A stretch of 64,000 nucleotides of DNA, taken from positions 62,001 to 126,000 of the forward strand of contig NZ_CP121666.1 of assembly GCF_029714325.1 (NCBI RefSeq), in the 5' to 3' direction. The number at the start of each line of letters is the position of its first letter. Within the stretch, counting starts at the first letter, position 1. Positions 17,323 to 23,819 of this stretch are shown piece by piece. Made by a program: the position numbers and the translations under genes. Below the pieces are notes generated by a model. That model worked only from the letters and a program-made list of their open reading frames with translations. It made no database searches and was not told the DNA's origin. This DNA is from Bradyrhizobium sp. CB1717 (GTDB taxonomy: Bacteria; Pseudomonadota; Alphaproteobacteria; Rhizobiales; Xanthobacteraceae).

Positions 17323-17562
17323 CTCGCCTGCCCTTTCTATTCAAGGTGGCGAGCACACCACACGCGCAATTACGGGTCCAGTATTGGTACGGATTAGCTG
17401 GCATTCCCGATTCTGCCATCATCGTTACCGTTGATTCGGACATCCGCGGTCCCCTTTGGATCGGGCAGGGCACGTCCTGAGCGAGAAGAGCTCAGCATCC
17501 AGAAGCGATGCACGTTCGCCTGGCGTATCCCTGACCCAGCACTCCAAAGGAATCATCTTCCA

Positions 17563-18306
17563 ATGCACACGATCGTACTGGCCACCCAAAAGGGCGGCAG
17601 TGGCAAGAGCACGCTTGCCATCGGCCTCGCGCTGGCAGCCAAGCAGGCCGGCTTTACCGTCCGCCTGATCGAGACCGATCCGCAGGGCACCCTCTCCAAT
17701 TGGCAGCGCCGCCGCACCACCGACGATCTCGTGGTCGAGCCGATCTATCACGCCGCCGATATCGCGCCGCGCCTGAAGATGCTCGCCGACAGCGGCCTCC
17801 AGCTCGCGATCGTCGACACTGCGGCCGGCCTTTCCGCCGCCACCACCGCCGCGATCCGCCATTCCGATCTCTGCCTGATCCCGGCCCGCCCGAGCGTCGC
17901 CGACATCGAGGCGACCGTCTCGACGCTGAGCGTCGCGCGCGCCTGGAAGCGGCCCTACAGCTTCGTGCTGAACCAGACCCCGATCCGCGGCCAGCGCATC
18001 GACAACGCCGCAGGCGCGCTCGCCGAGGAAGCCGCACTCGATCTGTCCGAGGTGCTCGCGCGCCCGCTGATCGTGATGCGCAACGACCATCAGGACTCGC
18101 TCGCGAGCGGCCTCGCCGTCAGCGAGTTCGCGCCGAACGGCAAATCGGCTGACGAGATCCGCGGCCTTTGGCGCTGGGTCGAGACCCGGCTCGAGCTCGA
18201 AGCCACGACCAATGTCCTGATCGACCAGGTCATCTCCGCTGCGGACGGCATGCTGCACGTCGCCAGCGAGATTGCGGCGGACGAGACCACGACCCTGGCG
18301 TCCTGA
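17563..18306 (+). CDS. Orphan ParA/MinD-family ATPase
   Basis: 247-residue deviant-Walker ATPase. The P-loop QKGGSGKST (residues 8-16) has the signature Lys before the Gly pair, switch I has ETDPQGTLSNW, and the Walker B-like strand is LQLAIVDTAAG. Such proteins dimerise with ATP and position cargo (plasmids, chromosome origins, T-DNA border complexes such as VirC1, or protein clusters) on the nucleoid. No parB-like gene or parS site is adjacent, so the cargo is unknown. The ATG at 17563 begins the beta1 strand (HTIVLATQKGG) directly; the in-frame extension to 17431 is not family-like. Confidence 0.85.
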   Translation: MHTIVLATQKGGSGKSTLAIGLALAAKQAGFTVRLIETDPQGTLSNWQRRRTTDDLVVEPIYHAADIAPRLKMLADSGLQLAIVDTAAGLSAATTAAIRHSDLCLIPARPSVADIEATVSTLSVARAWKRPYSFVLNQTPIRGQRIDNAAGALAEEAALDLSEVLARPLIVMRNDHQDSLASGLAVSEFAPNGKSADEIRGLWRWVETRLELEATTNVLIDQVISAADGMLHVASEIAADETTTLAS

Positions 18307-18430
18307 GCGGAGCGATCGCTCAGACGGCACCCTTCTCCATCCGGAAGGGCCCCAGCGACGAAGCAATCCGGCCCCCAGCCCGGCCGGATTGCTTCGCGTC
18401 GCGGTTTTGAGCACGAGAAACTATCCTCCT

Positions 18431-18510
18431 CGTCATTGCGAGCGCAGCGAAGCAATCCAGAGTCTTTCCGCGGAGGGATTCTGGATTGCTTCGCTGCGCT
18501 CGCAATGACG
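18431..18510. repeat. Long palindrome, CATTGCGAGCGCAGCGAAGCAATCC family, copy 1
   Basis: 80 bp with nearly perfect inverted halves: CGTCATTGCGAGCGCAGCGA on the left and its complement ending CTCGCAATGACG on the right, plus an inner TCCGCGGA palindrome. A copy differing by a few bases is at 60309-60386. It sits between parA and mutM, which converge. Confidence 0.9.
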
Positions 18511-18562
18511 TGGTGGGTTAGTCGTCTTACAGAGATTCACAACCTCCCGGCTGCGATCCCTC

Positions 18563-19444
18563 TCACTTCTGACATTTCGGGCACCAGAAGGTCGAACGGC
18601 CGTTCTGGGTGACGCGCTTGACCGTGCCGCCGCAGCGCGGCGTCGTGCATTTTTCGCCCTCGCGGTCATAAACCTTGAAGGAGTGCTGGAAATAGCCGAG
18701 CTCGCCCGAGGTCTGGCGATGGTCGCGCAGTGACGAGCCGCCGGCCTTGATGGCGTCGTTCAGCACGGTGTGGATCGCACCGACCAGTCGCTTCGCATGA
18801 TCGGTCGGCTCGCCCTTCTTCGTCGACAGCGTCGCCGCAATGCGCCGTGGCGACAGATGCGAGCGGTGCAGCGCCTCGCAGACATAGATGTTGCCGAGGC
18901 CCGCGACCACGCGCTGGTCGAGCAGCGCGGCCTTCAGGCTGGTGGTCTTGCCTTCACAGGAGCGCGCCAGCATCGCGGCGTCGAACTCGTTGCCGAGCGG
19001 CTCGGGTCCGAGCCCGCGGAGCAGCGGCTCGTCCTCGAGCGCATTGCGCGCGATCACTTTCATGTAACCGAAGCGGCGCGGATCGTTGAAGACGATGTCG
19101 GCGCCGGAGGACATCCGAAACAGCACGTGGTCATGCGCTGAATCCTTGGCCTTCGGATAGTGAAACTCGCCGGGCACCGTGCCGTTGTCCGGCTTGATGA
19201 CGCGGAACGAGCCCGACATGCCCAGATGCATCAGCAGCACATCGCCGGAGGCAAGATCGGCCATGAGATATTTTGCACGGCGGCCGAGACCCGTGACGAC
19301 CTGCCCCTTGAGCCGGGCCACGAAATCCGGCTGGAAGGGGAAGCGCAGGTCCGGCCGGCGGGCCTCCGCGACCAGGATTTTCGCACCCTCCATGACGGGC
19401 TGAAGGCCGCGGCGGACAGTCTCGACTTCGGGCAATTCAGGCAT
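18563..19444 (-). CDS. mutM: Formamidopyrimidine-DNA glycosylase (Fpg/MutM)
   Basis: 293-residue base-excision repair enzyme that removes 8-oxoguanine and ring-opened purines and nicks the abasic site. The N-terminus [14 protein letters not shown] gives the catalytic Pro2 and Glu3. The helix-two-turn-helix region carries [26 protein letters not shown], and the C-terminal zinc finger has Cys pairs in [10 protein letters not shown] and FWCPKC. Length is typical. It is divergent from ubiE across 81 bp and converges on the parA gene. Confidence 0.96.
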
Positions 19445-19525: not shown

Positions 19526-20287
19526 ATGGATCGGCCGGGCGAAACCACGCATTTTGGCTTCAAAGACGTTCCCCTGGGGGACAAGCAGACGCTGGTGAAC
19601 GATGTGTTTCACAGCGTGGCGTCGCGCTATGACCTGATGAACGACCTGATGTCCGGTGGCCTGCACCGGGTCTGGAAGGACATCATGATCAACGCGCTGG
19701 ACCCGCCGCGGAGCGACCGGCCGTTCGCCCTGCTCGACGTCGCCGGCGGCACCGGCGATATCTCGTTCCGCGCCGCCAAGGCGGCCGGTCCCGGCTTCCA
19801 CGCCACGGTCTGCGACATCAATTCCGACATGCTCGCGGTGGGGCGCGAGCGCGCCGCCAAGCGCCATCTCGAGACCCAGGTCGATTTCGTCGAAGGCAAT
19901 GCCGAATCGCTCGGCTTCGCCGACCGCAGCTTCGACGCATATACGATCGCTTTCGGCATTCGCAACGTGCCGCAGATCAACCTTGCGCTGCGCGAGGCCT
20001 ATCGCGTGCTGAGGCCCGGCAGCCGCTTCCTGTGCCTGGAGTTCTCCACCGTCGAGATGCCCGGCCTCGACAAGCTCTATGATCTGTTCTCGTTCAAGGT
20101 GATCCCGCCGCTCGGCCGCATGGTCACGGGCGACGCCGAATCGTACCAATATCTCGTCGAATCGATCCGCAAGTTTCCGAAGCCTGCCGCCTTCGCCGAC
20201 ATGATCCGCGAGGCCGGCTTTTCCCGCGTGAGCTGGCAGACACTCTCCGGCGGCATCGTCGCACTGCATTCGGGCTGGCGTTTGTGA
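19526..20287 (+). CDS. ubiE: Ubiquinone biosynthesis C-methyltransferase UbiE
   Basis: 253-residue SAM-dependent methyltransferase that methylates the quinone ring (2-methoxy-6-polyprenyl benzoquinol, or demethylmenaquinol where present). The SAM-binding GxGxG motif is [20 protein letters not shown] and the UbiE/COQ5 signature is [18 protein letters not shown] with [25 protein letters not shown] [15 protein letters not shown]. The start [20 protein letters not shown] is typical of the family. Its stop overlaps the GTG start of ubiB by four bases (GTGA), indicating translational coupling. Confidence 0.96.
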
Positions 20288-21858
20288 TCTCTGCTTTCAC
20301 CCACATTGCGCGCCTCATCCGCGCCGCGTTCGTGTTTGCGCGCGAGGGCGTGTTCGGCTCCGTCGACCCAAGCCTGGTACCGCCACCCGGCCAGCTTGCG
20401 CTGAAGCTTGCGCGCATCGTCGAGCGGCGCGGCGTCAAGCACGGGCCGCGAATCTCGCGCGCGCTGACACGGATGGGCCCGGCCTATCTCAAGCTCGGCC
20501 AATTCCTGGCAACGCGCCCCGACGTGGTCGGCGTCATCATGGCGCGCGACCTCGAAAGCCTCCAGGACCGCCTGCCGCCGTTTTCGCAGGCCGAGGCGGA
20601 AGCCACAATCACCACCTCGCTGGAGCGGCCGCTGAAGGACGTGTTCGCGAGCTTCGGCCCGCCCGTCGCCGCCGCCTCGATCGCGCAGGTGCATCGCGGC
20701 GAGGTCGAGCGCGACGGTATTCGCAGGCCGGTCGCGATCAAGGTGCTGAGGCCGAACGTCGCCGCCCGCTTCCGCCGCGACCTCTCGGATTTCTTCTTCG
20801 TCGCGTACAACGCCGAGGCCTATTCGTCCGAGGCGCGCCGGCTGCGCCTGATCGAAGTCATCAACACCATGTCGCGCTCGGTCGCGATGGAGATGGACCT
20901 GCGGCTCGAAGCAGCCGCGCTGTCGGAGATGGCGGAGAACACGCAGGGCGATCCCGATTTCCGCGTGCCGACCGTCGACTGGGACCGCACCACGCACAAC
21001 GTGCTGACGATGGAGTGGATCGACGGCATCGCGCTGAACGATCACAAGCGCCTTGCAGAGGCGCAGGTCGATCTGCCCGATCTCGGCCGCAAGGTGATCC
21101 AGAGCTTCCTGCGGCACGCCTTGCGCGACGGCTACTTCCACGCCGACATGCATCCGGGCAATCTGTTCCTCGATGAGGCCGGCCGCCTCGTCGCGGTCGA
21201 TTTCGGCATCATGGGCCGGCTCGGGATGAAGGAGCGGCGCTTCCTCGCCGAGATCCTGCTCGGCTTCATCACCCGCGACTATCGCCGCGTGGCGGAAGTG
21301 CATTTCGAAGCGGGCTATGTGCCCGCGCACCATTCGGTCGAGAATTTCGCGCAAGCCATCCGCGCCATCGGCGAGCCGATCCATAACCGCACCGCCGAGG
21401 AGATCTCGATGGCGCGGCTCCTGACGCTGCTGCTCGAGGTCACCGGCCTGTTCGACATGACGACGCGGCCCGAACTGATCCTGCTGCAGAAGACCATGGT
21501 GGTGGTCGAGGGCGTGGCACGCGGCTTCGATCCCCGGCTCGACATCTGGAAGGTCGCAGACCCCGTGGTGCGCGAATGGATCGAGCGTAATCTCGGCCCG
21601 ATCGGCCGCATCGAAGGTGCGCTTGCGGGGACCGGAGACATTGCGCGCGTGCTGATGCGCCTGCCGGAGATCGCCGAGCGCTCGGTGAAGGTCCTCGAGC
21701 AGCTCGAGACCATGACCCGGGAGGGGTTAAAACTGTCGCCGGAGAGCATCGCGGCCATGGGCCGCAGCGAAGGCCGCAAGAACCGCTGGCGCACCGTGGC
21801 GCTCTGGATCATCGCCGCGACCTTCATCGGGATCCTGATCGCCGTCCGGAATCTGTGA
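20284..21858 (+). CDS. ubiB: Ubiquinone biosynthesis accessory kinase-like protein UbiB
   Basis: 524-residue ABC1/ADCK/UbiB atypical-kinase-like protein needed for aerobic ubiquinone synthesis at the inner membrane. The family KxGQ motif is [16 protein letters not shown], the Ala-rich loop is [13 protein letters not shown], and the catalytic-like strands read [26 protein letters not shown]. One C-terminal membrane helix ([20 protein letters not shown]) anchors it. It starts on a GTG that shares bases with the ubiE stop. Its own stop overlaps the palindrome that precedes coaBC, so ubiE, ubiB and coaBC are probably one transcription unit with an internal control point. Confidence 0.95.
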
Positions 21859-21886
21859 TTGCACTGCAATCATGCGAGTGATAGCA
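21856..21886. promoter_or_regulatory. Candidate operator for the RHH-CoaBC protein
   Basis: A perfect 17-bp palindrome, TGATTGCA-C-TGCAATCA (21856-21872), overlaps the ubiB stop. Six bases later comes TGATAGCA (21879-21886), which forms a second inverted pair with TGCAATCA at one mismatch. Three 8-bp half-sites thus lie within 31 bp, 30-60 bp before the coaBC start. From memory, the FitA antitoxin recognises TGCTATCA/TGATAGCA half-sites. Since CoaBC here carries a FitA-like domain, autoregulation is a natural inference, but binding is untested. Confidence 0.55.
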
Positions 21887-21915
21887 TCGCCATCATTCCG
21901 TGCTGGAGGGGCGTC

Positions 21916-23364
21916 ATGGCAAGCCTGACCATCCGCAAGCTCGACGATGCCGTCAAAACCTATTTGCGGCTGCGCTCGGCCAAGAACCACAGGTCGGTCG
22001 AGGAAGAGGTCCGGGTCATCCTGCGGGAGCTGATCGAGGGCCGCGAGGAGCCGCTGACGCCGTTTTCGGCGCCCCCGGCCCAATCCATCGCCCCGACGCC
22101 CCAGCGCACCGGCGCGCTCCCCGAGGCCAGCGTCACCCTGATCATCGGCGGCGGGATCGCGGCCTATAAATCGCTCGACCTGATCCGCCGGCTGAAGGAA
22201 CGACGCGTCGAGGTTCGCTGCGTGCTGACCAAGGCGGCGCAGCAATTCGTCACGCCGCTGGCGGTGAGCGCGCTCTCGCATGAGCGCGTCTACACCGACC
22301 TGTTCGACCCCCAGAGCGAGTTCGACGCCGGCCATATTCGCCTCGCGCGCGACTGCGATTTGATCGTGGTGGCGCCGGCGACGGCCGATTTGATGGCGAA
22401 GATGGCGAACGGCCATGCCGACGATCTCGCCAGCGCGATCCTGCTCGCGACCAACCGAAAAATCCTGCTGGCGCCGGCGATGAATCCGCTGATGTGGAAC
22501 AACGTGGCGACGCGGCGCAACCTCGCCCAGCTCCAGCGCGACGGCGTGGTGCTGGTCGGACCGAATTCCGGTGAGATGGCCGAGGCGGGCGAAGCCGGTG
22601 TCGGCCGCATGTCGGAAGCGATCGAGATCGCCAATGCCGCCGAGCGACTGCTGCGGCCGCCGGTGCCGAAGCCGCTCGCCGGCAAGCGTCTGCTGATCAC
22701 CGCTGGGCCCACGCACGAGCCGATCGATCCGGTGCGCTACATTGCCAACCGCTCTTCCGGCAAGCAGGGTTTTGCCATCGCCGCCGCCGCGCAGGCCGCC
22801 GGCGCCGAGGTGATCCTGGTGAGCGGCCCGGTCGATCTCGACGACCCCGCCGGCGTCACAGTGAAACACGTGGAATCGGCGCGGCAGATGCTGGAGCAGG
22901 TGCAGGCGGCGCTGCCCGCCGACATCGCGATCTTCGCCGCCGCGGTCGCCGACTGGCGCGTCGCCAATGAGGGCGAGCAGAAGCTGAAGAAGACCGCGGC
23001 CGGCATGCCGCCGCTACAGCTGGTCGAGAACCCCGACATCCTCGCAACGATCTCGAAGCTCGCCGACAAACGCCCGCCGCTGGTGATCGGCTTTGCCGCC
23101 GAGACCGAGCATCTCATCGACAACGCCAAATCAAAACTCGCCCGCAAGGGCTGCGACTGGATCGTCGCCAACGACGTCTCGCCGGCGACCGGCGTGATGG
23201 GCGGCGACCGCAACACTGTCCATCTCATCAGCAAGAATGCTGCGAAGAACGGCGAGATCACAGTTGATTCCTGGCCCGTGATGACCAAGGAACAGGTCGC
23301 CATCGAACTGGTCGCGCACATCGCCAGAAGCGTGACCGACAAATCCCCGGAGCCGGCATCTTGA
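21916..23364 (+). CDS. coaBC: CoaBC (phosphopantothenoylcysteine decarboxylase/synthetase) with N-terminal ribbon-helix-helix domain
   Basis: 482 residues from the ATG at 21916 (GGAGGGG ribosome site). Residues 1-42 ([20 protein letters not shown]..., [17 protein letters not shown]) look like a FitA/VapB-type ribbon-helix-helix DNA-binding antitoxin domain. A Pro/Ala-rich linker (about 43-71) leads to CoaC (from residue 72; [16 protein letters not shown], His140 in GHIRLAR, PAMN with Asn190) and then CoaB (from about residue 252; [29 protein letters not shown]). CoaB ligates Cys to phosphopantothenate and CoaC decarboxylates the product, on the route to coenzyme A. The CoaC Cys expected in the ACGxxGxGRM motif reads Ala224 ([11 protein letters not shown]). 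No PIN toxin gene is adjacent. The stop overlaps the dut TTG start. Confidence 0.9.
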
Positions 23365-23819
23365 GCACGAAGGTCACCGTCGAACTGCAGCGCCTCGCCC
23401 ATGCCGATGGCCTGCCGCTGCCGGCCTATCAGACCGCGGAGGCCGCCGGCCTCGACCTGATGGCCGCGGTGCCGGACGCCGAGCCGATGACACTCGCGCC
23501 CGGCCAATATGCGCTGGTGCCGACGGGGCTCGCGATCGCCCTGCCGCCAGGGTACGAGGCACAGGTGCGGCCGCGCTCGGGGCTTGCCGCCAAGCACGGC
23601 GTCACCGTGCTGAACTCGCCTGGAACCATCGACGCCGACTACCGCGGCGAGATCAAGGTGATCCTGATCAATCACGGCGCTGCCCCGTTCGTGATCACGC
23701 GCGGCGAGCGCATCGCGCAGATGGTGATCGCGCCCGTGGTGCAGGCCGCGCTGGTCCCGGTGGCGACCTTGTCCGCGACCGATCGCGGCGCCGGCGGCTT
23801 CGGCTCGACGGGCCGCTAG
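23361..23819 (+). CDS. dut: Deoxyuridine 5'-triphosphate nucleotidohydrolase (dUTPase)
   Basis: 152-residue trimeric dUTPase that hydrolyses dUTP to dUMP, keeping uracil out of DNA and feeding dTMP synthesis. All motifs are visible: motif 1 AGLDLMAAV, motif 2 [12 protein letters not shown], motif 3 [14 protein letters not shown] (catalytic Asp and Tyr), motif 4 [10 protein letters not shown] and the C-terminal P-loop-like motif 5 [10 protein letters not shown]. The start is TTG, overlapping the coaBC stop (TTGA), the same coupling as at ubiE/ubiB. The coaBC-dut pairing is common in proteobacteria. Confidence 0.95.

Follow-up and report, generated by a model that had tools for sequence, protein, structure and literature searches.

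A FitA-type antitoxin domain fused to CoaBC and a candidate operator upstream of coaBC in Bradyrhizobium

In the window (the whole stretch of 64,000 nucleotides from Bradyrhizobium sp. CB1717 that we analyzed), the coenzyme A (CoA) synthesis enzyme CoaBC carries an N-terminal ribbon-helix-helix (RHH) domain of the FitA antitoxin type. We consider it highly likely that the fused protein is an autogenous repressor-enzyme of the PutA kind, in which a captured FitA domain and its operator would enable CoaBC to repress coaBC-dut. Transcriptional feedback seems to be written into the CoA enzyme itself, with a defined and directly testable operator, in a large and ecologically important group of bacteria (Bradyrhizobium, Rhodopseudomonas, Nitrobacter, Afipia, Mesorhizobium and Phyllobacterium).

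We found the reading frame, its ATG at 21916 and the GGAGGGG site at 21905-21911 to be as the first-pass annotation had described them. Its claims of an N-terminal FitA-type RHH and of full CoaC and CoaB domains behind the RHH and linker also stood: a search of the N-terminus against RHH families returned PF22513 (FitA-like_RHH) on residues 2-38 (E 1.1e-14; 54.5 bits, cut-off 27), and the enzyme was matched by PF02441, PF04127 and the CoaBC equivalog TIGR00521 (residues 72-469, E 3.1e-116; 388.7 bits, cut-off 219.7). When residues 1-71 were compared with solved chains at E up to 1, the only matches were to 'Trafficking protein A' (FitA; 2h1o and 2bsq), and on sequence alone these are weak, with E-values of 0.13 and 0.15. 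By both sequence and fold, the closest solved relative is full-length M. smegmatis CoaBC (6tgv), where the match begins at fusion residue 74, corresponding to 6tgv residue 9. An AlphaFold2 monomer model (40-row alignment; mean pLDDT 83.6, pTM 0.58) places two RHH helices at residues 11-23 and 28-41, a linker of pLDDT <50 at residues 43-67 and then the CoaBC fold. Residues 1-4 also have a pLDDT under 50, and poor modelling of the first residues is expected for an RHH monomer without its dimer partner. An upstream TTG (21859) is an alternative start for the frame; the conserved start of homologues supports ATG 21916.

Table 1. Features of the coaBC locus, in window positions.
Feature	Position	Strand	Basis
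ubiB, gene upstream of coaBC	20284..21858	+	TIGR01982 above cut-off
Operator palindrome 1, TGATTGCACTGCAATCA = TGATTGCA-C-TGCAATCA	21856..21872		Perfect 8-1-8 inverted repeat
Operator palindrome 2, TGATAGCATCGCCATCA = TGATAGCA-T-CGCCATCA	21879..21895		Imperfect repeat
Ribosome-binding site GGAGGGG	21905..21911	+	4 nt before ATG 21916
RHH-CoaBC fusion gene	21916..23364	+	482 aa + stop; ORF and profile matches
FitA-like RHH domain, residues 2-38	21919..22029	+	PF22513, E 1.1e-14; model helices 11-23 and 28-41
Disordered linker, residues 43-67	22042..22116	+	pLDDT below 50 in model
CoaC (flavoprotein decarboxylase) domain, residues 73-234	22132..22617	+	PF02441
CoaB (phosphopantothenate-cysteine ligase) domain, residues 254-438	22675..23229	+	PF04127
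dut (dUTPase), downstream gene	23361..23819	+	TTG start; ORF list and profile matches

A 57-base gap separates the end of ubiB (21858) from the coaBC ATG. The coaBC stop and the dut TTG start share TTGA (23361-23364), so dut is probably on the same regulated transcript; the overlap also suggests that translation of dUTPase is coupled to that of CoaBC. Regulation probably covers coaBC-dut as one unit, ubiB being upstream of the operator. A promoter scan of the region before coaBC found no sigma-70 promoter. A known RNA element in the gap was rejected (at the gathering threshold, Rfam matches nothing in the window except a tRNA), as was a close plasmid copy of the gap (161 bases searched, no match). 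Elsewhere in the window, the translation of the frame at 17431-18306 (+) contains KGGSGKST, a motif that we take to resemble an orphan ParA-type ATPase; its neighbour, at 18563-19444 on the opposite strand, resembles a formamidopyrimidine-DNA glycosylase gene. Repeat-like segments at about 18400-18570, with translations containing CERSEAIQ and CFAALAMT, recall dispersed REP-like elements; a similar stretch lies between operator and start codon in the ubiB-coaBC gap of one relative, G037 (L186).

The candidate operator comprises two palindromes of 17 bp each, spaced 23 bp from centre to centre. Palindrome 1 is composed of two TGMWWKCA boxes, and its first three bases (21856-21858) are the ubiB stop codon. 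Palindrome 2 has two mismatches to a looser pattern, TGATWKCAWTGMWATCA, and three to the strict consensus, TGATTGCANTGCAATCA. The FitA operator presumably resembles TGATAGCA.

We compared the upstream regions of 202 non-redundant loci, dropping one (L107, cut by a contig end) before counting. Each locus was scored by its best match to the 16 positions of TGATTGCANTGCAATCA; the stretch scored was the 120 bp ahead of the RHH start in fused loci and the 200 bp ahead of the CoaC match in unfused ones. Counts over 132 rows include L211, which is actually an unfused fitA with a fitB remnant; counts over 131 rows leave it out. With up to 3 of 16 mismatches, a site was present in 107 of 131 fused loci versus 0 of 66 unfused loci, and with up to 4 mismatches in 122 of 131 versus 1 of 66. 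Dinucleotide shuffles yielded 0/660 and 19/660 at these thresholds, and thinning at 80 percent core identity left sites of up to 3 mismatches in 35/47 fused versus 0/34 unfused loci. Control 580-bp stretches of ubiB from fused loci contained such a site in 4/132 rows (one row later reclassified), and some of these four may be displaced operators, because the fused locus of G037 (L186) has TGATTGCGTTGCAATCA, with 1 mismatch, about 140 bp before its start codon and none within 120 bp. This locus is one of 9/131 fused loci without a site of up to 4 mismatches inside 120 bp. By this comparison, the predicted operator tracks the fused domain.

The arrangement of the sites is also regular. Two sites occur in 57 of 132 loci, with a centre spacing of 22-23 bp in 51 of the 57, and 110 of 123 loci have the centre of their best site 20-59 nt ahead of the RHH start. 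The 8-bp half-site TGMWWKCA averages 2.48 copies per fused upstream region, as against 0.02 in unfused regions, 0.05 in ubiB and 0.10 in shuffled sequence, and its commonest spacing is 9 bp (120 pairs). Among the 93 best sites that consist of two full boxes, 39 are asymmetric and 54 perfectly symmetric, and these 54 comprise 45 that equal the consensus and 9 in which both halves have changed together. RHH dimers bound side by side would require near-symmetric boxes of this kind, placed next to each other. One unfused coaBC (L286, in G146) has GATTGATGGCG...GCATTGCAATCA in the last tens of bases before the gene, perhaps a fossil operator left after loss of the RHH.

Other CoaBC proteins share the N-terminus. 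CoaBC was matched in 147 of the 149 genomes of the GTDB family, and 84 of these matches align from residue 1 or 2, one of them (G020) broken into two pieces; a few others are cut by contig ends. In the genus, where fusion was inferred via frame length and up to 102 candidates per genome were scored, PF22513 falls in a frame of 476-549 aa in 59 of 60 genomes, the exception being an 80-percent-complete genome. PF22513, PF02441 and PF04127 occur together in 118 of the best 120 of 4882 homologues of residues 1-90. Within the best 80 of at least 592 loci, the named fused genomes include Bradyrhizobium, Rhodopseudomonas, Nitrobacter, Afipia and Pseudolabrys, together with a second group of Mesorhizobium, Phyllobacterium, Zhengella and Nitratireductor, and the unfused include Microvirga, Methylobacterium, Bosea, Ensifer, Xanthobacter, Roseibium and one Mesorhizobium. 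A draw of 289 genomes from the class gave a match from residue 1 at E 1e-15 only in the own genome, and a draw of 299 genomes from the phylum gave 13 matches starting at residue 1-2 (E 1e-14), every one of them within the same order; weaker fusions could escape at either threshold.

The RHH codons are also under purifying selection, as judged by a simple Nei-Gojobori calculation on 25 Bradyrhizobium rows compared without gap handling: dN/dS is estimated at 0.146 for RHH codons 2-42 and 0.48 for linker codons 43-56, and the CoaC core, over its first 120 codons, gives 0.089. Arg7, Ser27 and Glu29 are present in 131/131 fused rows and R33 in 130/131; Arg7 is presumably a residue with which FitA touches DNA.

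Within the own 9.23-Mb genome, the locus of palindrome 1 is the only place that matches TGATTGCANTGCAATCA at up to 1 mismatch, and the looser palindrome at up to 2 mismatches occurs in five places, two of them here. We rejected a wider regulon in this genome, as just 3 more places match at up to 2 mismatches and a reversed control pattern gives 1 forward match. CoaBC is the single PF22513 match among the 150 of 263 candidates scored, and therefore no other FitA-type reader is known there; across the genus, 49 of 60 genomes have the long-frame match as their sole PF22513 match. Among the matches listed from the 149 family genomes there are 32 exact copies of the operator, and 29 of these are at the coaBC locus, no more than 100 bp ahead of either a fused coaBC or the fitA that precedes coaBC in G049 and G079. 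The exact copies outside the 29, among the same matches, are in G060, G094 and G065. In G065 (L283), a second perfect TGATTGCACTGCAATCA is found at contig position 1399620, 4.3 kb upstream of coaBC; it sits right after a 477-aa ORF and has no obvious context.

These data bear on the reading that a different regulator binds the palindromes and that the RHH on CoaBC is a leftover without function. Five genomes (G022, G073, G094, G116 and G145) have 2-14 sites at up to 1 mismatch away from coaBC, mostly of TGATTGCGATGCAATCA type, so that similar DNA may be read there by another protein. A different regulator at coaBC is nonetheless improbable, because the operator tracks the fusion (107/131 vs 0/66), the same operator precedes a free fitA in G079 and G049 and no other FitA-like RHH was found among the 150 of 263 candidates scored in the own genome, and a leftover would not fit the purifying selection on the RHH codons. 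In four of the five genomes coaBC is unfused, and in G116 it is cut by a contig end; the sites there are possibly another regulator's.

Under the mechanism that we prefer, self-repression by fused CoaBC, RHH dimers of the CoaBC oligomer would bind the boxes through their N-terminal strand (residues 2-8) and block coaBC-dut transcription, so that the abundance of the enzyme would feed back on its own synthesis. Binding of the operator and repression of coaBC-dut are proposed by analogy with trifunctional PutA, described as a flavoenzyme that has an N-terminal RHH domain and acts as an autogenous repressor (PMC5293562), and by analogy with type II antitoxins, described as usually binding palindromes that overlap their own promoters and hindering RNA polymerase (PMC4803016). 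The loose linker might let several of the up to 12 RHH domains per particle fill adjacent boxes, and, more speculatively, DNA binding might be tuned by a ligand, for example a CoA thioester, CTP or phosphopantothenate. Avidity and ligand control would both be plausible if the fusion resembles mycobacterial CoaBC, reported to be a dodecamer with CoaC at its core whose CoaB is inhibited by CoA thioesters (PMC7794376).

It is also conceivable that the RHH binds the operator and either activates the genes or merely tethers the enzyme to DNA, as the sign of regulation is unreadable from sequence and the promoter scan was negative. We give little credence to this, given that type II antitoxins are described as usually hindering RNA polymerase at promoter palindromes (PMC4803016) and that the best site is usually near the start codon.

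The genes found in this gap in relatives point to where the domain may have come from. Six relatives have a separate fitA between ubiB and coaBC. In G079, the gap contains a perfect operator (TGATTGCAATGCAATCA), fitA and fitB, followed by unfused coaBC, with GTGA and ATGA overlaps; its FitA is full (PF22513, E 1.1e-19), as is its PIN protein (PF01850, E 1.7e-11). In G009 and G049, fitA is present and fitB is reduced to its ends, and helix 2 of the G049 fitA is short by one residue. G044, G074 and G096 have fitA-fitB at the coaBC locus. The operator is perfect in 2 of these 6 loci (G079 and G049), with 4 mismatches in G096, 5 in G009 and 7 in both G044 and G074. Accordingly, the first-pass statement that no toxin gene is adjacent is right for the window, with ubiB before and dut after, and wrong for some relatives, such as G079 with its PIN gene. 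Its two larger proposals are strengthened by comparison across genomes. Capture of an antitoxin DNA-binding domain by CoaBC is suggested by the conservation of the operator with the fusion, by the un-fused antitoxin gene in the relatives' gap and by the absence of a second reader among the scored candidates of the genome; control by fused CoaBC of its own gene is predicted from the way in which the operator tracks the fusion and, again, from the lack of a second FitA-like reader there.

The proposed history is that a fitAB module came to lie between ubiB and coaBC, that the toxin gene and the toxin-binding tail were lost, and that the RHH was then fused to CoaBC with the operator kept. In a CoaBC core tree (quick method, without 10 of the 202 rows that have frame breaks or odd starts), the fused label changes at least 9 times, 3 of these changes being forced by well-supported branches, and the genus of G079 and G009 sits inside a fused-rich clade. 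The simplest account would be an old fitAB insertion, after which the toxin was lost and fusion and outright loss occurred, perhaps on several occasions; the order may also have been fusion first, with the fitAB module arriving later. Of the 114 fused RHHs in the family, the one closest to G079 FitA is 78 percent identical to it, and of 5 stand-alone FitAs the closest is 68 percent identical, while the median is 65 percent in both sets; the RHH part is too short for these identities to settle descent. Upstream of stand-alone FitA-like genes elsewhere, boxes such as TGCTATCATTGA or TGCAGTCATTGA occur in 5 of 8 readable loci, and 0 of the 8 are within 4 mismatches of the coaBC operator. These boxes hint at a grammar shared with the coaBC operator.

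An antitoxin ancestry raises the question of whether the RHH still acts as an antitoxin in trans, with CoaBC neutralizing a FitB-like PIN toxin encoded elsewhere. The domain belongs to the FitA antitoxin family and related genomes contain intact fitAB-like pairs, but the toxin-binding tail of FitA is gone (tail or FitB-end motifs are found in 0 of 131 linkers of fused proteins), the linker is variable and disordered, and the window's locus is without a toxin gene; we regard such a role as very improbable. Hardly credible at all is a true start near residue 70 that would leave the RHH codons untranslated in CoaBC: unfused orthologues do begin near that residue, but dN/dS is 0.146 in the RHH codons vs 0.089 in the CoaC core, the ribosome-binding site at 21905-21911 is followed by one open frame, and best-site centres are 20-59 nt before the RHH start in 110/123 loci. 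An N-terminus arising by chance or by mis-assigned start was rejected on the PF22513 match, the homologues' conserved start and purifying selection.

Returning to self-repression by fused CoaBC, a bolder version of it makes CoaBC a CoA-pool sensor: up to 12 antitoxin-derived RHH domains would bind cooperatively to the boxes of the protein's own promoter, with DNA affinity altered when CoA or acyl-CoA binds at CoaB, and this arrangement would have had more than one origin, each in the decay of a fitAB module that had inserted between ubiB and coaBC. We put this forward tentatively and think it possible rather than probable. If true, it would mean that a selfish addiction module can repeatedly be converted into the self-regulation of an essential enzyme, and that the intact, half-decayed and fused stages of this conversion all survive today. 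Taken together, the loci are a rare fossil series for the entry of a toxin-antitoxin module into core metabolism. The fused RHH-CoaBC architecture is already in databases, where one source calls a member a 'plasmid stability protein'. In the open-access literature, we found nothing relevant on fused CoaBC, its operator, its regulatory logic or the decay series; accounts in print elsewhere are possible.

Three known systems invite comparison. M. smegmatis CoaBC (6tgv) has the same CoaC and CoaB domains and is without an N-terminal DNA-binding domain. The fusion resembles FitA-FitB in its RHH profile and in the position of the domain at the protein start, and G079 has FitA-like and PIN genes behind the same operator; it differs in that the window is without a toxin gene, the antitoxin tail is lost and the RHH is joined to an essential enzyme. 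Like PutA, RHH-CoaBC is a metabolic enzyme with an N-terminal RHH and, as predicted by comparison, candidate sites in its own upstream region; the membrane switching of PutA has no evident counterpart in it. It departs from PutA in enzyme and pathway, in having an RHH of FitA antitoxin type (PF22513), and in the toxin-antitoxin pair that relatives retain at this locus.
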